Positions 1 to 57,753 of a DNA stretch of 57,753 nucleotides are shown in pieces. Within the stretch, counting starts at the first letter, position 1. Each line of letters begins with the position of its first letter. Source of the stretch: a virus. The stretch covers positions 1 through 57,753 of the IMG/VR virus record IMGVR_UViG_3300037156_000089; one strand, 5' to 3'. Position numbers and translations under genes: made by a program. The notes under the pieces were generated by a model that saw only the letters and a program-made list of their open reading frames with translations, made no database searches and was not told the DNA's origin.

Positions 1-127
1 AGGAGAAGATCGAAGAGGCGGTTTTACCCATTGCGATCAAACAATCGGCCAGCGAATTAAGGGCTGAGCAGCTATCCGAGAAGCTCAAAGATTTCGAGGT
101 CAGCGTAGTTTCGAACTTCGTCTCGAA
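1..127. repeat. Terminal direct repeat, left copy
   Basis: Bases 1-127 are identical to 57627-57753, and a single open frame continues across the join. This means the contig is circular, or the genome is circularly permuted as expected for headful packaging; the repeat is most simply the overlap left by an assembler closing the circle. Confidence 0.95.
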
Positions 128-4891: not shown

Positions 4892-5109
4892 GTGCGATCC
4901 TCGCTGGCTGCGGGCGGGGCGGAGCGTTCATACTTCACACCACAGAAGGGGCAGAAACTCGCCATCAGGACCGGCGTCCGCTTCCCTCTAATTTTCTTCT
5001 CGGTGTAAGTCTCGACGCACGCTTCTGGCGGGCCGAACAGGCTGGACATCACCACTGCTCCGTAGGGCTTGAGAAGTTCATTGGTATTTTTGATGCAATC
5101 GCACTTCAT
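4888..5109 (-). CDS. Small zinc-ribbon-like protein
   Basis: A 73-residue protein starting MKCDC and containing CPFCGVKY near residue 57, so four cysteines in two pairs likely bind zinc. Start at 5109 is fixed by GGGAGAGTGAG ATG. It resembles short phage proteins of unknown role. Its upstream junction and its tail (SAPPAASEDRT) are repeats of those around the gene 1017-1295. Confidence 0.7.
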   Translation of the reverse strand: MKCDCIKNTNELLKPYGAVVMSSLFGPPEACVETYTEKKIRGKRTPVLMASFCPFCGVKYERSAPPAASEDRT

Positions 5110-5110
5110 C

Positions 5111-6136
5111 TCACTCTCCCTTGGGCGCGGCGGACTTGAATGTGCTGCATTGGCAGTATTTGCATCCAACCGCAGCCCACTCTTCGTAAGAGTCGAAATG
5201 CCGCTCATATGGATGCCCGCATTCACAGACGGCCTGTTGATCGTGGCTCGGATCGTAAACTCCCTTGGGCGCGGCGGACGGGGGCTGCTGGGGGTTAAAC
5301 GGCCTATTGGGGTAGGGCTGACCCGCACCCGGCTTTCCCATCTTAGAACCCTCCGGCGCGCCCTGAGCGGGCTGCGGCGAAGCAGCACATTCTGGGCAAG
5401 GCTCGCTGCGATACCCCGCCTCTGCATGATCGAATCCGCCGATTTCTCCGCGTCCTTCGCACATTTGACAGTGCAGCGGCGATGCGGAGAGGGCGGCAAT
5501 TGCGTGATAGCTCAAATCCCTACGGTCGAACGCCGGTCCATGAGGATGCGGCTTGTAGATTTCCGGGTTTGCGTACCATTCCAGCGCCTTCCGCAGATCC
5601 CCGCACTCGCACGGGTTGGCCTGCGCGGCGGATCGGAGTGAGGCGGCAAAGGAAACCGAATAGTCCCGTGCGATTTTCTCGATTACTGCCGCTTCCATCG
5701 CCCCGCAGGAGCGGGGGGAGGGGAGAACCGCAGCACGCAGCGCGGATCGCAATTTGTCGCGCTCCGCATAAAGCTCGTCTAATTGGTCTATGGCTTTGTC
5801 GAGGGTCTGACTGACGGCATCCCTTTCGGCTATCACGCTCGCCAGCGTCGAACCGTCTTGTGTATAAGAAACCGGGGTTGGTGATACACAAGCCGCGTTG
5901 CTTACAATGGGAGACACACAAGCGAGCGTCGGTGCGCCAGCGGTCTCAGGCGTGATGCCGAGGGCGGCGTCGATGAAGTCCACAACCGTTTCGTTTGGGT
6001 GATCGTCTGGCATCCAGAGGGTATCGGTCACGATGCCGAACGGTGCTTCCATGATGGCGCGGCGAACTTCGGCCAACGCCTTCCGCGCGACGGCCTCGCG
6101 CGTCGCTTCGTAGTCAGATGTATCGTGCAAGGACAT
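5111..6136 (-). CDS. Mosaic early protein with zinc-binding modules
   Basis: A 341-residue modular protein: an N-terminal helical part, a coiled-coil-like stretch (ASVIAERDAVSQTLDKAID), a segment CGDLRKALEWYANPEIY common to variable phage early proteins, a CQMCEGRGEIGG...CPEC DnaJ-like zinc knuckle, a Pro/Gln linker and a C-terminal CECG...CKYCQC module. The last module sits between two SAAPKG peptides, as in the P-loop gene at 1297. Start chosen at 6136 (GGAG six bases ahead). It seems to have been built by in-frame cassette joining. Confidence 0.65.
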   Translation of the reverse strand: MSLHDTSDYEATREAVARKALAEVRRAIMEAPFGIVTDTLWMPDDHPNETVVDFIDAALGITPETAGAPTLACVSPIVSNAACVSPTPVSYTQDGSTLASVIAERDAVSQTLDKAIDQLDELYAERDKLRSALRAAVLPSPRSCGAMEAAVIEKIARDYSVSFAASLRSAAQANPCECGDLRKALEWYANPEIYKPHPHGPAFDRRDLSYHAIAALSASPLHCQMCEGRGEIGGFDHAEAGYRSEPCPECAASPQPAQGAPEGSKMGKPGAGQPYPNRPFNPQQPPSAAPKGVYDPSHDQQAVCECGHPYERHFDSYEEWAAVGCKYCQCSTFKSAAPKGE

Positions 6137-7444: not shown

Positions 7445-7647
7445 TTGGGCTGATCCTCCCACTTCGGAACGGCGGGCGCGGTCGGAGCCGATGGCGTGAT
7501 GCGAAGGCGGTAGAGGGGCTTGTAGTGGAAGGCCTTTGCCGCAAAATCGGCGCGCTGCTCTCCGGCTGCTCGGGTGAGGGCTTCGTATTCACCCACGAAC
7601 TGGTCGCCGATCGTGTCCCTGTAGACGGTGCGGAAATGGGGCTGCAT
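7441..7647 (-). CDS. Small unknown protein
   Basis: A 68-residue protein joined by TGATG to the gene before it and ATGA to the one after it. The sequence has an aromatic start (MQPHFRTVYRDTIGDQFVG) and a Pro/Ala-rich end. No family recognised. Confidence 0.6.
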   Translation of the reverse strand: MQPHFRTVYRDTIGDQFVGEYEALTRAAGEQRADFAAKAFHYKPLYRLRITPSAPTAPAVPKWEDQPK

Positions 7648-7967
7648 CAGAAGCCCTCCACTTTCGCGAGGGCTTGATCGATCTTGTTCCGGGCCATCGG
7701 TGGGATGGTCGGCAAGCCATCGCGGCGGCAGTCTTCGTCCGCGTCGCGAACCATGATCAGGGCTTCGAGTAGATCGGGCGCGGCTGCGATCAGGCGGGCG
7801 TTTGCTTCTTCTTCGGCGCGCGTGAAGACGCTAAATTGCAAAGGCTTTCCGAAGACGATCGCGACAGCAGATCCCATGGAGTTGTTGCAATAGACGTATC
7901 CAGGTTGACCATTCCCAATTTCCCCGACTTCCCACGGCCCGGCTGTGTGCGTCACTTGCTCGCTCAT
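7647..7967 (-). CDS. Conserved small phage protein (HTAGPW family)
   Basis: A 106-residue protein with HTAGPWEVG near the start and ANARLIAAAPDLLEAL in the middle. This pair of motifs defines a very common small phage protein family of unknown role, usually in early operons. ATG 7967 chosen over TTG 7970. Confidence 0.85.
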   Translation of the reverse strand: MSEQVTHTAGPWEVGEIGNGQPGYVYCNNSMGSAVAIVFGKPLQFSVFTRAEEEANARLIAAAPDLLEALIMVRDADEDCRRDGLPTIPPMARNKIDQALAKVEGF

Positions 7968-7970
7968 CAA

Positions 7971-9401
7971 TCAGCCCTCCACAGTCGCGTCGGACATGGC
8001 GTCTTTGGCCTTGTCCCAGCCTTCGACCCAAGCATCAGCCTCGGCCTTGCGCGCGGCGGTCCGATATTCAGCCGGGATCGCGCTGCGCTTCGTCTGCGCT
8101 TGGTTCGCGTCCCATCCCGCTTTCATCGCAGCGAGCGCAGGGTCTACATTCGGGGCAGGGGCCTCCTCGTCATCCCAAGGTGCAGCGGCGTCATCCGCGG
8201 CCTTCGCAGCGAGCAAAAGCTCCGGCAGGATCGGCTTGACGTGCTCGGCGTATTCCTCTGGCGTGATACTCTTCGCCCAAAGGCGGAGGCGGTTCGCGCC
8301 TTTCGCGGCCTTGGCGCGCGCGGTGGTCGCGACCTCGTGTTCGGCGGCAGTGCCATCGTCAGCTTCGGGCTCAACGATATCGCCAGCCACGGGGCCGAAG
8401 TCATCGACGATCGTGTCGGCCTTCACTTCCTCCGCAATCTCTCCCGTCTCCGGATCGTGCGCGGGCTCCAGTTCGGCCTTGGCGGTAGGCGTGGCGGTCT
8501 CCGCCGCAACGAAGGCAGCATCAAACCCTGTCGATGCCTTTGGGCCGCTGGCGGGGCTCGGGTCGCCATCGGTGACGATCTTCGGGGCCTGGTCGGACAG
8601 CGGGTTCGCGACCACTTGGTGTGCCGCCGCCGCAGTCTGACGGGTCGAGAACATCTCTTCGACGGTCGCTTCGCCGTTTTTCAGCGCGGCAAACATACCT
8701 CGGAGGACCGGGATTTTATCTAGACCAATGTCGTCAAGCCCTTGCACGGCAATAGCCGCAAAGACTTGCTCCGGCTTCACGCCGTAATTAGCAAAGGCCT
8801 TGAGGCTCTTGTCCCGAGTTACAACCAGGGTCTCGATTGTACCCGCGACAACCTTCCGAACGGCGTCTTCTGCCTGTCGCCAGACCGGCTTCGGAACCCC
8901 GCCCAAGATCGCATTGCGCTTTGCAATCGAACAGGCGGCATTCCCGGTCACAATAATCATATCGTCCGAATAGAGGCGTCCCTTGGAGTCCACGATACGG
9001 CGGCGAACCCGTGCCATCGTCGCACTGTTCGTTTCCAAATCGTGATAGACGCCTTCCGCCTCAACGAACTTCTCGGTCCGGTCGACATGGACGACGCGCG
9101 CCGCGACTCGACAATTGCCCCAACACTGTTGGATGATCTCGGCAAGGCGGATGGACGGCCCGGTGATCGGCTTCCCGCCTCGTGGCAGGGCATAGGTGCA
9201 TTCTTCCGCCGTCATCTCGTCCAGCGTCGCGAGCGTGAAGATTGCATCCGTTGCGCGCTTGATCGAGCGGGGATAAGCCCGTGCGGTTGCGATTTGCTGG
9301 TCAATCTCGGCGCGGGTCAGGCCGATTGCCAAGCTTTGATCCGGGGCCGTCATTTCAATGACTTCGCCGTCTTGCGTGATGATTTCGTTCTTATTTTCCA
9401 T
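7971..9401 (-). CDS. Probable single-strand annealing protein (RecT/Erf-like role) with RMF-like tail
   Basis: A 476-residue protein. Residues about 25-270 (YPRSIKRATDAIF, ALPRGGKPITGPSIRLAEI, ARVRRRIVDSKGRLYSDDM) match a phage family found beside RecE-like nucleases, so an annealing role is inferred from its partner at 9407-10405 rather than from a motif. A long acidic Ala/Pro-rich linker follows. The last 45 residues (AAMKAGWDANQAQTKRSAI, then AWVEGWDKA) resemble the ribosome modulation factor motif of alphaproteobacterial proteins. Start at ATG 9401; AAGGA upstream. Confidence 0.6.
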   Translation of the reverse strand: MENKNEIITQDGEVIEMTAPDQSLAIGLTRAEIDQQIATARAYPRSIKRATDAIFTLATLDEMTAEECTYALPRGGKPITGPSIRLAEIIQQCWGNCRVAARVVHVDRTEKFVEAEGVYHDLETNSATMARVRRRIVDSKGRLYSDDMIIVTGNAACSIAKRNAILGGVPKPVWRQAEDAVRKVVAGTIETLVVTRDKSLKAFANYGVKPEQVFAAIAVQGLDDIGLDKIPVLRGMFAALKNGEATVEEMFSTRQTAAAAHQVVANPLSDQAPKIVTDGDPSPASGPKASTGFDAAFVAAETATPTAKAELEPAHDPETGEIAEEVKADTIVDDFGPVAGDIVEPEADDGTAAEHEVATTARAKAAKGANRLRLWAKSITPEEYAEHVKPILPELLLAAKAADDAAAPWDDEEAPAPNVDPALAAMKAGWDANQAQTKRSAIPAEYRTAARKAEADAWVEGWDKAKDAMSDATVEG

Positions 9402-23459: not shown

Positions 23460-24002
23460 ATGAGCAGACCCGGTCGCAAACGTAAGATGGCACCACGCAC
23501 CCCCTGCGGAAAAATCAAACTGAGAAGGCCGACCATGACCGAACTCGCAACCCTCGACCGCGAAGCCCGTCAATCCGAAATGCAGGTCGTCTTGCTCCAG
23601 CCTCACCGCCTGGGCGATACGGACCAATTATGCGTCTCGGCCCTAGGAAGGTTCGTGAAGGCCCATAAACTGCGTCGGGAGTACCATGACGCCGCGGAGA
23701 GTTATGCGGGCCTGGTGCGCCGCCTGTGGGCCGCCAAGGGGGTTCCTACAGACCAGAGGTCGGGTGAAACTGGTTCCGGCATCGGTCCATCCGACGCGAC
23801 CGTGCGCAAATGGGAAAAAGAAGAGCTTGCGGTCCGGACGGCTTTGATGCGGGTCCACACGCAGGCGTTCCTGACGGTGCGGCGTGTGGCGATTGAGGAC
23901 CGGGAGATTCGGGACGAGATGGCACAGTTCCTGATCGCAGGGCTGAAAGTGGTGGCGGTCGAATACGGCATGGCGAGGGCTGGCGATCACCCTTTCCGAT
24001 AA
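23460..24002 (+). CDS. Unknown protein at the early-late boundary
   Basis: A 180-residue basic protein beginning MSRPGRKRKMAPRTPCGKIK, with QPHRLGDTDQLCVSALGRFV and a helical C-terminal half. AGGAGGCCAC precedes ATG 23460. Relatives with the GRKRK-P-G start occur before the terminase genes of alphaproteobacterial phages, where late activators or antiterminators usually lie; that role is only suggested by position. Confidence 0.65.
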   Translation: MSRPGRKRKMAPRTPCGKIKLRRPTMTELATLDREARQSEMQVVLLQPHRLGDTDQLCVSALGRFVKAHKLRREYHDAAESYAGLVRRLWAAKGVPTDQRSGETGSGIGPSDATVRKWEKEELAVRTALMRVHTQAFLTVRRVAIEDREIRDEMAQFLIAGLKVVAVEYGMARAGDHPFR

Positions 24003-24355
24003 AATGGGCCATGGTCCAGATGTCAGCTTGACAGCTTATCGCAAATCAGTCAGGTTTTCCGATATCCAAAATCCAAACCCGCGCCCGGAGCTGAATAAAC
24101 GCCCGGGCGTGATTCGTTTAAGCGCCCGTCTGGTCCCATGATAGGCTTGGCGGCGCATGAAAAGGCCATGGCTTTGGCCTCAGTGGCGGTGGCGTCTTCT
24201 TGTCCGGTGGGCGCCACCGCCGCGCACCTTTTCAAGTTTCACGGTAAGTGCCTGGCGCAGTCCTCGCTCGCTGCACCTAGTTTGTCCTAGGCATCTGACA
24301 ACCCGCCGGGGCGGGCCGTGAGTTCAGTTTCAGAGTTTGCCGCGTAGGCAAGAAA

Positions 24356-24418
24356 GTCAGGCAGGTTCAATTCCTGCTCGCTGACCGAGATCAGGTGAAA
24401 TGACGGTTCAAATCCGTC
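24356..24418 (+). other. Two tRNA T-arm-like stem-loops
   Basis: GCAGG-TTCAATT-CCTGC (24361-24377) and GACGG-TTCAAAT-CCGTC (24402-24418) each have the 5-bp stem and 7-nt TTC-loop of a tRNA T-arm. They lie 41 nt apart, too close for two full tRNAs, and no matching acceptor or anticodon arms with CCA were found. They may be tRNA remnants, part of an attachment site, or tRNA mimics inside the structured RNA. Confidence 0.5.
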
Positions 24419-24472
24419 CGGCGCTTTCGAGCGCTCGCAGTCCGCAGGGGTGTGCGGAGGTCTAACGTTTCA

Positions 24473-24498
24473 GGGCCATCCTCCGGGGTGGCCCTTTT
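24473..24498 (+). terminator. Intrinsic terminator inside the structured region
   Basis: GGGCCATC (24473-24480), loop CTCCGG, GGTGGCCC (24487-24494), then TTTT. One U-G pair in an otherwise perfect 8-bp stem. It could end the early rightward transcript or the first half of the structured RNA. Confidence 0.7.
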
Positions 24499-25239
24499 CA
24501 ATTCAAGGACCGAACCCATTCCGAAATGGAATGAGTTTGAATTCCGGCAGGGTTAGATTAAGTGCAATACCGCCGCCCCGCCATCCACGTAGGGCAGGGC
24601 AGGCCTCAAGCCTATTTCTGCGCCGGGTATAGCCAGAACCTAATCGAAGGCATCGGCCGGGCGCCCTAGCGCCGCGCCTTCCATCCTTTCGTCGGGCCGT
24701 GCTCGAGCCCGATGCTGAGACAGCGCGCACCTCTCCGGAGCAAGCGGGCCTCGTAAGTTTCGCCCGAAGGGGCGTCCGACTCCCAGGGCAGTTTGGGCCT
24801 GCCTTACCTCCGCGCCGGTTTCCGGGGTCAGCGCGACAGGGACAAATGAAACCGGCGCGCAAGGCGCTCCAATAGGAGGCCGCAAGCGCGACAATTCGCC
24901 CGAACGGGCAACGATGGCGCCCGCTGCATCAAAGGTGCAGCCCGGTTCAAACGATGGCGAGTTCGCGCCGTGGGCCATGAAGTTTGTGCGGCGGCGGAGT
25001 TCTGGAACAAGCCAGATTAAAGCGGAGGCACCTTCCCGCGCCTCACCCGCACAATTCAATCGCATCCAACCGGCAGGCATCGAACCCTCGCCCGGCTAAG
25101 TCTCAGCGGACAGGTGCGACCTCATGATGGCTGGACGGCTAAACGCAACGCGCCGTCCGCACCACCCACGGTAATAATCAAACAGATCCCGTGCACAACG
25201 GTTTCAGCTAAGCCGCAAACTCTTTCCCCAGAGAGCCCC

Positions 25240-25413
25240 ATGCCCGAACCTCATCAGGCCATCACCCGTGTCCTCGTCACAGAGTTCGGTGAGCAAATCC
25301 GGGCCATGCAGCCCGTCGCCATAGAACCCGGCTCAGACTTCGATCGGGAGTGTCGTGAAATATTGGAGCGGATCGAGAGCGCCTATACCAAAATAAAGGC
25401 CGATGGAAACTAA
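25240..25413 (+). CDS. Small acidic protein, unknown
   Basis: A 57-residue acidic, helical protein (MPEPHQAITRVLVTEFGEQI, then REILERIESAYTKI). AGAGAG precedes the ATG. It lies between the structured region and the second leader stem-loop. No family recognised. Confidence 0.55.
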   Translation: MPEPHQAITRVLVTEFGEQIRAMQPVAIEPGSDFDRECREILERIESAYTKIKADGN

Positions 25414-25454: not shown

Positions 25455-25489
25455 GGGCCGCAAGTGATTTATCAGATCACAAGCAGCCC
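25455..25489 (+). ncRNA. 35-nt leader stem-loop, copy B
   Basis: Arms GGGCCGC/GCAGCCC (25455-25461, 25483-25489; one C-A mismatch) and inner stem GTGAT/ATCAC (25464-25468, 25476-25480). The inner stem differs from copies A and C by a paired change that keeps complementarity. It precedes the HNH gene at 25516. Confidence 0.7.
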
Positions 25490-25515
25490 TAACCAAACCG
25501 CTGTAAGGAGCGATT

Positions 25516-26049
25516 ATGGCTAAGGTCAAAGATACCCCGACTTGCGGGGATTTACAAACGCGCCTCGATTACGACCCTGATACCGGCGTTTTCACTTGGA
25601 AAGCGCGGTTGGAAGGTACTCGCCAGAGCCGTCATTTCAATACGGTCTACGCTGGGAAGGTTGCAGGTAGCGTCGAGACGACCGGATATCGGGTAATCTG
25701 GATCGATGGGAAGCGTTATAAGGCGCACCGCCTCGCGATGGTCTACATGAGCCACGCTGTTGAATGTATTCAGGTCGACCACATCGATGGCGACAAAGAG
25801 AATAACCGTTATTCGAACCTACGGCTCGCAACCCCATCTGAAAACTCTCAGAACCTTGCAGCGCCAGCAGGTAGGCTTATGGGCGCGTACTTCCGCCCGA
25901 AAGACGGCTTCTGGGTCGCCAGCATCCGCCTCAATAGGCGCTCTCACTATCTCGGCTGCTTCTCAAGCGCCGAACTTGCTCATGACGCTTATACCTCCGC
26001 AAAATCCAGACTTCACATATTCCAGCCCACTTTGAGAGTGGCCCGCTAG
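25516..26049 (+). CDS. HNH endonuclease with AP2-like domain
   Basis: A 177-residue protein: RLDYDPDTGVFTWKAR, then YKAHRLAMVYM and VDHIDGDKENNRYSNLRLAT for the HNH core (about residues 65-100), and a shorter AP2-like end (GAYFRPKDGFWVASIRLNRR, LGCFSSAELAHDAY). It has its own promoter and structured leader and sits just before the terminase genes. Probably a free-standing homing endonuclease; an effect on packaging is possible. Confidence 0.9.
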   Translation: MAKVKDTPTCGDLQTRLDYDPDTGVFTWKARLEGTRQSRHFNTVYAGKVAGSVETTGYRVIWIDGKRYKAHRLAMVYMSHAVECIQVDHIDGDKENNRYSNLRLATPSENSQNLAAPAGRLMGAYFRPKDGFWVASIRLNRRSHYLGCFSSAELAHDAYTSAKSRLHIFQPTLRVAR

Positions 26050-26160
26050 CATGCGCCAAAGGCTCGCGGAGATCGAGCGCAGGATCGCCGCTGATAAGGC
26101 GACGGAGAGTTAAGCTGCGTCCCACCAATAATTAATCCATCCAAACCCAAGAGGTCTGAA

Positions 26161-26646
26161 ATGAAAAAGAGCATTCTCGCCCTGTCGATGTTCGCCGCCC
26201 TGGTCAGCTCTACTGCCTATGCCGGAAACTATAGCGCCTATCCCTCTGCCGCAGGCGCCCTCACGGGCATCGAATCTATGCCGGCCGACACCAATCTCCC
26301 GAACGGGGCCAATCCCCAGACCGAAATCATCTCCGTTCAGTCCCTCCGCGCCAGCGCATACGCCCAGAGCACGCCGTCGACGGCCTTCTCGATCACCCCC
26401 GGCCTCGGCGTACAGGTCGTGCAGATCACCCCTGCCGGTACGCTCGCCACGGGAACGATCACCACCCCGGCGGCCCCGGTAGACGGACAGACGCTCCGCA
26501 TCTTCTCGACCCAGATCGTCACCGCCTTCACCCTGACGGCAAATACCGGGCAGACCATCAACGGCACTGCCGTGACCGCGCTCGCTGCGAACGTAGCTGT
26601 CACCTACATGTACTCGGCCGCAACTGCCGCTTGGTTCCGCATCTAG
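26161..26646 (+). CDS. Secreted or virion-surface protein with signal peptide
   Basis: A 161-residue protein. Residues 1-21 (MKKSILALSMFAALVSSTAYA) form a textbook Sec signal peptide with an AYA cleavage site. The rest is Thr/Ala/Gly-rich and beta-like (AGTLATGTITTPAAPVDGQT, TANTGQTINGTAVTA), like small phage beta-sandwich proteins. AAGAGG precedes the ATG. A signal peptide just before the terminase genes is unusual. Confidence 0.7.
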   Translation: MKKSILALSMFAALVSSTAYAGNYSAYPSAAGALTGIESMPADTNLPNGANPQTEIISVQSLRASAYAQSTPSTAFSITPGLGVQVVQITPAGTLATGTITTPAAPVDGQTLRIFSTQIVTAFTLTANTGQTINGTAVTALAANVAVTYMYSAATAAWFRI

Positions 26647-26660
26647 AGATCAGGTGTGCA

Positions 26661-27305
26661 GTGACAGAGCAAAAAAAAGCCCCGACCGACTGGGAATCCA
26701 TAGAGAAGGATTATCGGGCCGGGGTTCTTTCCATCCGCGAAGTGGCGAAGATCCACGGGGTTTCAGATACCGCTATTCGGAAAAAGGCCAAGGCCGAAAG
26801 TTGGCAGCGCGACCTCACCGAGCGAGTAAACGAGCAGGTTCGCGCCGAGTTGGTTCGCAATACGGTTCGCGCGAGCGACCCGCAAACCGAACGGGAGATC
26901 GTAGATGCTGCCGCAGCGACCGTTGTTCAGGTCGTGCGAAGTCACCGAACCCGGATTGGCCATGGAAACGACCTCGTCGATCTGCTCACCAAGCAATTAA
27001 TGGACGTCGCCGGGAAGCGCGAAGACTTCGAGCAGGCGATTGACCTCGAATGCGCGGGGGATAAAAGCCCCGAGCGACGCACCCGGCTTATGAAGGCCGT
27101 GGCCTTGTCGACGCATGCGGGAATGGCGGTAAATCTCGCCAATGCCCTGAAGGTTTTAATCGGCCTTGAGCGCCAGGCCTTTAATCTCGACGCCCCTGCC
27201 GAGACAGCCATCATATTGGATGCAACCGACGCCACGACCGCATCCCGCCGCAAAGCCGCTCTCGCGCTTCTGCTGGCAAAGCAAGACGAAGGACAGCCTT
27301 CATGA
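26661..27305 (+). CDS. terS: Terminase small subunit
   Basis: A 214-residue protein starting at GTG 26661. The N-terminal helix-turn-helix (KDYRAGVLSIREVAKIHGVS then DTAIRKKAKAESW) is typical of small terminases that bind the packaging site; the long helical middle fits oligomerisation. It lies two genes ahead of the large terminase. The start codon is the first that keeps the HTH intact. Confidence 0.8.
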   Translation: MTEQKKAPTDWESIEKDYRAGVLSIREVAKIHGVSDTAIRKKAKAESWQRDLTERVNEQVRAELVRNTVRASDPQTEREIVDAAAATVVQVVRSHRTRIGHGNDLVDLLTKQLMDVAGKREDFEQAIDLECAGDKSPERRTRLMKAVALSTHAGMAVNLANALKVLIGLERQAFNLDAPAETAIILDATDATTASRRKAALALLLAKQDEGQPS

Positions 27306-27703
27306 GCATTTCAATCGATCGCAAGATCATCGAGCCTGTTATCGACGGCAGGGCGCTCCGGATCACGATTGATGACCACGGGGCTCATGTCGAACTGAGC
27401 TCGGCTAATCTCAATCATACGTTCTGCCAGATTTCGGATTCGGCATGGCTCCTCGAGGATTGTGCGGACTTCCACCGGGTGATTGCGATCATCAACCGTG
27501 ATGGGACGGTTTGCGCTGCGAATGCCCCGCCCGCCGTCGAAGATGAGGATCCTGTCCTCGTCGCCGAGCCCGATGCCATCATTGCGGCCGCGCTCGCCGC
27601 TCCGGAGCCGCAGGCGCTTGTCGCCGAGCCCGCCAGCGCTGTGCTCGAGCCCATCCATGATGTCGCTCTCGTGCCTCTGGCATTCCCTGAAGCTGAAGGC
27701 TGA
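27302..27703 (+). CDS. Unknown protein between the terminase genes
   Basis: A 133-residue acidic protein, ATGA-coupled to the small terminase. The first 80 residues look like a small beta domain (RALRITIDDHGAHVELSSA); the rest is an Ala/Pro/Glu-rich tail (EPDAIIAAALAAPEPQ). No family recognised. Confidence 0.65.
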   Translation: MSISIDRKIIEPVIDGRALRITIDDHGAHVELSSANLNHTFCQISDSAWLLEDCADFHRVIAIINRDGTVCAANAPPAVEDEDPVLVAEPDAIIAAALAAPEPQALVAEPASAVLEPIHDVALVPLAFPEAEG

Positions 27704-27729
27704 CCCTTCGAAACCTTGCGAATTAACTC

Positions 27730-29331
27730 ATGTCCGCTCTCGATCGTCTTGAGGCTCTTCTATCTGGCCTCGACGCGAAGCAAACTGCTGATCTGGACCG
27801 GTTGCTCGTTGAGGAATTAAAGAAGCCGTGGCTCCCGACGCCGGGGCCTCAGCTAGTCGCGTACCTCTCGGCGGCCGACCTGCTCCTTTTCGGCGGCAGT
27901 GCTGGTGGAGGGAAGAGTGATTTGATCTGCGGGCTCTGCCTAAACGAGCATCAGCGTTCGGTCGTGTTCCGAAGCCAATCGAAGGATCTGGACGGGTTCT
28001 GGGAGCGACTCTGCCAGTTGGCGAAGGGAACGAAGTCTCAGAACTCGGTAATGAAGAAGCTCGTCACCTTCGATGATCGAATGGTCGAGGGCGGGCATCT
28101 CGAAAAGCCGGGTTCGGAAAACTCATGGCAGGGCCGCGCACACGACTTCATCGGGTTTGATGAGGGGGCGCAGCTTACCGCCTACAAAGTCAAATTCGTG
28201 ATGGGCTGGCTCCGCTCCGCAGGCGGGCGCCGGTGCCGGGCCGTGATCGCATCGAACCCGCCAATCGGCGGCGAAGGATCATGGCTCCTCGAATGGTTCG
28301 CACCTTGGCTGAACCCAATGTTCTCGAACCCGGCAAAGCCTGGGGAGCTTCGTTGGGCGATAGCGATCGGCAGCAAGAGTGAGATCAAGACCATCTGGTG
28401 CGATGGACCGGACCTCGTTTACCTGAATTCAGACGGAACGGTCCGCTTGGCCACGGAGGAGGAGATTAATCACTCCCCGCCGCTCGATCAGATCAACAAG
28501 CCGCTCTCGCGCACATTCATTCCATCGCGACTGGACGATAACCCGCATCTGAGGGATACCGATTACCGCGCCCAGCTCATGTCGATGCCGGAGCCTTTGC
28601 GGTCGCAACTGCTCCATGGCGACTTTCTCGCCGGGCGCGAAGACGACGAATGGCAGGTCGTTCCTTCAGACTGGGTTCGCATTGCACAAGCTCGATGGGT
28701 TGACCCCAGCTCGACGCGCATGATCGCGCTGGGTGTCGACGTGGCGCAGGGCGGGGCCGATTCCAGTGTGCTCGCTCCGCTGCATGAGAAGAACGTGTTT
28801 GGCAAGATCGAGACGCGGCCGGGCCGGGATACGCCGGATGGGCCGTCTATCGCCAATCTAATTCTGAAATACCGCAGGGACGGCGCGGCGATCGCGATTG
28901 ATACGACCGGCGGCTGGGGCGGCTCCGCGAGGGACCATCTGAAAACCCATCATCAGATCACGGTCGTGCCGATTGTTTATTCGGCCGGGGCCGATGGAAT
29001 GGACCCATCAACACGGCTTGGTTACGCGAACGTGCGGGCGAAAATGTACTGGGAACTCCGGCTCGCGCTCGATCCGTCGAAGAACGAGAACGTCGCGCTG
29101 CCGCCAGGTGATCGCATCCTCGCGCAATTAACCGCCTCTCGCTGGAAGCCGCGCAACGGCAAAATCGTGATTGAGAGCAAGGAAGACATCCGGGCTCGTC
29201 TCGGATCATCGCCTGATGAGGCGGACGCAATCGTTGAGGCATGGCACGTCCGGGACCGCGCCTACAAGGCGTCCAAGACGCGCAGCGGGGCGTCTGACGC
29301 CAATCCGTCGAGACTGGGGTGGCTAGGTTAG
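27730..29331 (+). CDS. terL: Terminase large subunit
   Basis: A 533-residue packaging motor and nuclease. Walker A is GGSAGGGKS (55-63), Walker B ends IGFDEG (141-146) and a coupling segment ASNPP follows. The C-terminal RNase H-like nuclease shows GVDVAQGGADSS near 335 and SSPDEADAIVEAW near 493. Length is close to P22 gp2 (499 residues). Together with the circular map this supports headful packaging. Confidence 0.95.
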   Translation: MSALDRLEALLSGLDAKQTADLDRLLVEELKKPWLPTPGPQLVAYLSAADLLLFGGSAGGGKSDLICGLCLNEHQRSVVFRSQSKDLDGFWERLCQLAKGTKSQNSVMKKLVTFDDRMVEGGHLEKPGSENSWQGRAHDFIGFDEGAQLTAYKVKFVMGWLRSAGGRRCRAVIASNPPIGGEGSWLLEWFAPWLNPMFSNPAKPGELRWAIAIGSKSEIKTIWCDGPDLVYLNSDGTVRLATEEEINHSPPLDQINKPLSRTFIPSRLDDNPHLRDTDYRAQLMSMPEPLRSQLLHGDFLAGREDDEWQVVPSDWVRIAQARWVDPSSTRMIALGVDVAQGGADSSVLAPLHEKNVFGKIETRPGRDTPDGPSIANLILKYRRDGAAIAIDTTGGWGGSARDHLKTHHQITVVPIVYSAGADGMDPSTRLGYANVRAKMYWELRLALDPSKNENVALPPGDRILAQLTASRWKPRNGKIVIESKEDIRARLGSSPDEADAIVEAWHVRDRAYKASKTRSGASDANPSRLGWLG

Positions 29332-49212: not shown

Positions 49213-49247
49213 GGGCCGCAAGCGATTTGCGAGATCGCAGGCGGCCC
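49213..49247 (+). ncRNA. 35-nt leader stem-loop, copy C
   Basis: Same stems as copy A (GGGCCGC/GCGGCCC at 49213-49219 and 49241-49247; inner GCGAT/ATCGC), differing only by one loop base. Directly upstream of the gene at 49278, with the same spacing to a GGAGCG ribosome site. Confidence 0.7.
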
Positions 49248-49277
49248 TGACCACCGAACGCTTAACAGGAGCGCCCC

Positions 49278-57488: not shown

Positions 57489-57753
57489 TCGGGGACTTTC
57501 AGGGCACGACAATCACCGTAGGGGCACTACTCCTCATCGCGGGCGCAATATGGGGCGTGGTTCGAACGCTCGATTGGCTAAATGCCAAGTTTACGGCGAA
57601 CGAAGATGCGAGCAAGCAGCTCCTGAAGGAGAAGATCGAAGAGGCGGTTTTACCCATTGCGATCAAACAATCGGCCAGCGAATTAAGGGCTGAGCAGCTA
57701 TCCGAGAAGCTCAAAGATTTCGAGGTCAGCGTAGTTTCGAACTTCGTCTCGAA
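57485..57753 (+). CDS. Membrane-anchored coiled-coil protein, N-terminal part (continues at 1)
   Basis: The first 90 residues of the protein whose end lies at 1-245. It starts MIGDFQGTTITVGALLLIAG, with a membrane helix at about 9-27, followed by a heptad-like helix (KQLLKEKIEEAVLPIAIKQS). The 127-bp terminal repeat lies within it, so the gene is intact only on the circular map. Confidence 0.75.
   Translation, partial: MIGDFQGTTITVGALLLIAGAIWGVVRTLDWLNAKFTANEDASKQLLKEKIEEAVLPIAIKQSASELRAEQLSEKLKDFEVSVVSNFVS
57627..57753. repeat. Terminal direct repeat, right copy
   Basis: Exact second copy of bases 1-127. It lies inside the gene that starts at 57485, whose frame is kept when 57626 is joined to base 1. 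A biological 127-bp terminal repeat cannot be excluded from sequence alone, but a length of 127 is typical of k-mer overlap. Confidence 0.95.

Follow-up and report, generated by a model that had tools for sequence, protein, structure and literature searches.

The 5' part of a gene-free gap at positions 24003-25239 of the window, by which we mean the whole 57,753-nt stretch of phage DNA analysed here, reads as a Q-like late antitermination control segment whose leader combines a stable three-way junction, two orphan T-arms and at least two terminators, an interpretation to which we give a probability of roughly 0.7. A structured non-coding transcript likely starts at the 5' end of the gap, because a conserved promoter and a terminator hairpin lie right after the upstream gene and because positions 24003-24560 fold unusually well. 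Rather than a new giant ornate RNA, this folded 5' segment most likely represents the late transcript's leader. The antitermination module would account for the 5' part of the gap; the remainder, 24561-25239, is not explained by it.

The upstream gene and its neighbourhood

The gap is preceded on the plus strand by a gene for a 180-residue putative late antiterminator (23460-24002), termed Q-like by its position and context. Relatives of the gene were found by tblastn and HMM searches in a few phage contigs, and a search with relatives of the large terminase subunit uncovered further phage contigs carrying a gene of this type. Profile searches detected members in 24 of the 297 genomes taken from a single alphaproteobacterial order, the one to which a Bosea genome belongs, and in 12 of the 30 genomes of one genus. 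The window protein itself has no match in Pfam, NCBIfam or PHROG. Its relatives likewise lack a Pfam or NCBIfam match, and several of them are matched by phrog_15385, an unnamed family. An AlphaFold2 model of the protein (pLDDT 79) returned nothing from Foldseek at E <= 0.001, and the top VIA-align row was 3hug_A, a sigma region 4 domain aligned over 66 residues with a Z of 3.9, a modelled similarity that would fit a Q-type role yet lies within noise. The structures of lambda Q and 21Q are absent from the VIA-align rows for the model, which excludes nothing. We found no sequence tie to a named Q family; the proposal that the protein works like Q, as an antiterminator, is drawn from the Q-pR'-tR' order of lambda and from the parallel with GafZ of the Caulobacter gene transfer agent. 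Class-level hits at three loci (L141, L143 and L145) were considered as GafZ, an idea that found no support: the published gafY primers do not match those loci.

In this family, the gene sits between replication genes and terminase genes, and the succession of antiterminator-type gene, promoter and packaging genes is common to the window, L013, L039, L049, L052, L058 and L074. The late operon of the window begins on the plus strand (25516-29331) with an HNH endonuclease (25516-26049), the small terminase subunit (26631-27305) and the large terminase subunit (27730-29331), all assigned by PHROG matches, and the same genes lie downstream in relatives. One relative (L003, 6705-9419) has a large terminase of 904 residues compared with the usual ~530; it matches the window terminase in two separate segments and probably carries an intein or other insertion.

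Several repeats were also noted in the window. A leader hairpin, GGGCCGCAAGYGATTTNNNAGATCRCARGCRGCCCTRACC, occurs in three plus-strand copies (512-551, 25455-25494 and 49213-49252), each shortly upstream of a Shine-Dalgarno-like AGGAGCG and an ATG. The copies differ by paired changes and fold with z between -3.6 and -4.5, and a second hairpin pairs with the AGGAGCG. The repeated hairpin has a chance expectation of 0 and no exact match in viral contigs, and it suggests a shared leader with a translational or antitermination role. Another dispersed repeat, TCATCTCACTCTCCCTTGGGCGCRGCGGAC, is found at 1292-1321, 5106-5135 and 5250-5279, near the boundaries of leftward genes. An exact 127-bp direct repeat is present at both ends of the window (1-127 and 57627-57753), so that the record probably represents an entire phage genome of about 57.6 kb, assembled as a circle.

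Putative promoter, spacer element and terminators

The comparative anatomy of the region was drawn from 58 family loci, some of them weakly scoring, with 200 random placements in the same loci as control; since some of the loci are related, the counts overstate their independence. A TTGAC motif lies at -45 to +75 of the stop codon in 28 of the 58, as against 3.0 +/- 1.6 at random, and at 17 loci the TTGAC of the -35 itself contains the stop codon, TGA. It is on this enrichment that TTGACA at 24028-24033 (plus strand) is assigned as the -35 of a putative late promoter in the window. The accompanying -10 position, CAGGTT at 24051-24056 on the same strand, is a poor match and is placed by the 17-nt spacing from TTGACA and by alignment with relatives. 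Between the two lies CAAATCAG (24042-24049, plus strand), a candidate binding site for the antiterminator. The hexamer CAAATC recurs 14 nt 3' of where the -35 begins, in spacers that have otherwise diverged, and the register is fixed: TTG-N11-CAAATC occurs 7 times beside stops (8.25 kb) and 0 times in the 259.5 kb that make up the rest of these loci, a count confined to loci found by protein. In L011 the arrangement CAGCTTGACAG-N5-CGCAAATCAGT stands right behind the gene, the same as in the window, and L005 has the promoter in a diverged form.

Roughly half of the 58 family members carry no promoter or terminator. The spacer motif is also found in phage contigs L014-L016, where the adjacent gene is outside the 180-residue family, so that the motif might be bound by another factor; part of these hits may be due to chance. 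A scan of genome contigs for the promoter pattern returned one alphaproteobacterial locus (L020), with the same element as L014, together with matches in three scattered taxa that are likely chance.

Terminators follow the promoter closely. A hairpin with a T-rich tail is present within 180 nt of the stop in 19 of the 58 loci, where random placement gives 0.95 +/- 0.92. The first such intrinsic-terminator-like hairpin in the window (24080-24111, plus strand) is tR'-like, has a weak T-tract (ATTCGTTT) and has homologous hairpins in relatives. In L011 the promoter is followed by GCGCCCGGAGCTT..GCCGGGCGTTTTT, which matches the window hairpin, and the hairpin of L005 is nearly identical; more broadly, GCGCCCGG..CCGGGCGT with a run of T is common to L005, L011, L050, L051, L058, L059 and L147. 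Across 11 sequences of the first terminator, all six stem pairs tested are standard throughout, and one of them shows a compensatory change, a double change of C-G to T-A in 3 of the 11. A second, stronger intrinsic-terminator-like hairpin, AGGGCCATCC-TCCG-GGGTGGCCCT-TTTC, is predicted by folding at 24472-24500 on the plus strand.

These elements suggest a regulatory scheme. RNA polymerase would start near 24063 from a promoter abutting the gene for the 180-residue protein, with its -35 at 24028 and CAAATCAG at 24042-24049. Without this protein, transcription would stop at the hairpins near 24111 and 24500 and yield short leader RNAs resembling the 6S RNA of lambda. Once loaded at the spacer element, the protein would allow polymerase to read through the leader into the HNH, terminase and structural genes.

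Coding content and structure of the gap

A sequence-only reading of this DNA had described the gap as free of convincing genes, packed with stems and near tRNA-like sequences, had suggested a large ornate RNA of the GOLLD or ROOL kind, and had pointed to Rfam and to homologous regions in related phages as ways to examine it. The lack of a convincing gene is borne out. Open reading frames within 24003-25239 score near the wrong-frame background in a codon-usage test and have no PHROG match, and the longest has no tblastn match among phage sequences. At the DNA level, the gap found no match among phage records and, when searched against its own genome, matched only itself. Undetected or decayed small protein genes may nonetheless fill 24561-25239, where the next plausible open reading frame begins only at 25240 and a 146-residue open frame runs along the minus strand (24640-25080). 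That frame has a codon score of -0.04 (genes: median near 0.18; wrong frames: mean -0.19), and neither PHROG nor phage tblastn gave a hit, which leaves such genes rather unlikely.

The description of the gap as packed with stems fared less well. The individual stems quoted in its favor are present to the nucleotide, but their abundance is near chance: the gap holds 84 perfect Watson-Crick stems of at least 5 bp where dinucleotide shuffles give 67 +/- 9.6, and 3 of at least 8 bp where shuffles give 1.2 +/- 1.3, and tiles of the same length (1237 nt) elsewhere in the window are equally rich, also reaching 3 stems of at least 8 bp and a maximum of 12 bp. Stem counts are misleading in GC-rich DNA, and fold energies are more telling. 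Compared with shuffles, 24003-24560 has a z of -5.0 on the plus strand and -3.8 on the minus strand, with the excess concentrated in 24121-24240 (z -5.3), whereas 24561-25239 is ordinary (-1.9 and +0.2, respectively). Unusual structure is thus a property of the first segment and not of the second, which makes up about half of the region and which, by the folding, codon, PHROG and tblastn results together, is a gene-free remainder without excess structure. Within 24121-24240 folding predicts a stable three-way junction on the plus strand (24158-24234), closed by TGAAAAGG/CCTTTTCA and bearing the arms GGCC..GGCC and GGCGGTGGCG/CGCCACCGCC, which appears in both the minimum free energy and the centroid folds. 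A possible long-range pairing of 16 nt, 24332-24347 with 25208-25223, is 88% complementary. Elsewhere, the non-coding stretches 3' of the gene in L010 and L002 have no significant fold. In L074, ~650 nt without evident genes (7640-8320) lie directly ahead of the terminase genes and end in a GC-rich terminator-like hairpin; their folding (z -1.9) is not clearly above chance.

Might the gap nevertheless encode a large structured phage RNA that acts as RNA itself, be it of the GOLLD/ROOL kind or of a new class? Phages carry RNAs of that kind close to tRNA islands (PMC12286853). The strong folding of 24003-24560, its stable junction and the position of the gap near T-arm-like elements would all be in keeping with such an RNA, but no Rfam covariance model reaches its gathering threshold anywhere in the window, and no family matches the gap, including GOLLD, ROOL and the other large RNAs of Rfam. 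Permissive searches to E 10 gave only CRISPR-DR63, Plastid-ycf2, tRNA-Sec and Plasmid_R1162 at 16-20 bits, which we judged to be noise, and the two-piece tmRNA of alphaproteobacteria, also considered, had no Rfam hit. Half of the stretch is unstructured, and at other loci most long leaders are no more stably folded than their shuffled versions. Related phages did supply homologous sequence for the 5' end of the gap; its body, 24121-25239, has no homologue among the 148 loci gathered, and covariation could therefore be examined for the first terminator only. With no homologue for the bulk of the gap, membership among the GOLLD- or ROOL-like RNAs is unsupported, and an RNA of this description, known or new, appears very unlikely.

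The proximity to tRNA-like sequences stood in part. A motif scan identified two perfect orphan T-arms on the plus strand, 41 nt apart: GCAGG-TTCAATT-CCTGC (24361-24377) and GACGG-TTCAAAT-CCGTC (24402-24418). Neither ARAGORN nor the Rfam cloverleaf model (RF00005) detects a tRNA in the gap; with lowered thresholds ARAGORN made many implausible calls on both strands, which were judged noise. T-loops are also common in RNAs other than tRNA. One explanation is that 24240-24470 is what is left of a tRNA cassette in the late leader, of which the T-arms alone survive. This draws on the prophage L022, in which genes for tRNA-Ser and tRNA-Arg (2363-2450 and 2615-2688, called by ARAGORN and Rfam, with Rfam positions) and a third tRNA-like sequence between them form an insertion that separates the Q-like module from the late genes; because of this arrangement at the corresponding place, the two T-arms of the window may be relics of such a cassette. 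L044 similarly has two T-loop motifs there. For the window T-arms, however, no acceptor, D or anticodon arm was found, the best tRNA-type score is 17 bits, and candidate acceptor partners were only GC-rich chance matches. Downstream of the family, moreover, T-loop-type motifs show only a mild overall enrichment (0.68 vs 0.44 per kb). A decayed cassette is plausible, if on the unlikely side. The segment 24121-24471, in which the three-way junction and the tandem T-arms lie between the two terminators, may contain a new RNA; that this would be a new leader RNA acting as RNA in antitermination or late-gene control, read for example by the Q-like complex or serving as a tRNA mimic, has a slim chance in our estimate.

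Relation to known systems

How alphaproteobacterial phages control their late genes is largely uncharted. Reading the folded start of the gap as the leader of a late operon puts forward an unnamed family, common among the prophages of a single alphaproteobacterial order, as their antiterminator, and names an exact promoter element and terminators for testing. It also illustrates that a phage region which seems structured and free of genes can turn out to be the leader of a late operon, a possibility to be excluded before any claim to a new class of RNA. Like GOLLD and ROOL, the gap is phage-encoded, gene-free and set in a tRNA-like neighbourhood. It differs from them in its lack of a covariance-model match, in being half unstructured and in its promoter-terminator anatomy.

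The lambdoid phages offer a parallel. In lambda, Q is followed by pR', tR' and the late genes, and the short leader is the 6S RNA. The window has the same kind of order, from replication through antiterminator, promoter and early terminator to terminase, and it has a conserved element between -35 and -10; a short leader RNA would be expected. Unlike lambdoid Q, the window protein has no detectable relation to Pfam or NCBIfam families, and unlike that of lambda, the window leader is up to ~435 nt long, with two terminators and extra structure, and is followed by ~700 nt without genes. Experiments have shown that Q binds an element located between the late promoter's -35 and -10, after which polymerase ignores terminators (PMC6606751).

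GafZ of the Caulobacter gene transfer agent also acts by antitermination and, again by experiment, has its binding element between -35 and -10 (PMC11150451). That element, GCGCCCG-CTGGCGC, is unlike CAAATCAG of the window. By layout, the basis of this comparison, the window resembles the GafZ system of Caulobacter crescentus: both are alphaproteobacterial, the window has a candidate element between -35 and -10, and terminators stand ahead of the packaging-gene cluster, where read-through is proposed for the window as well.
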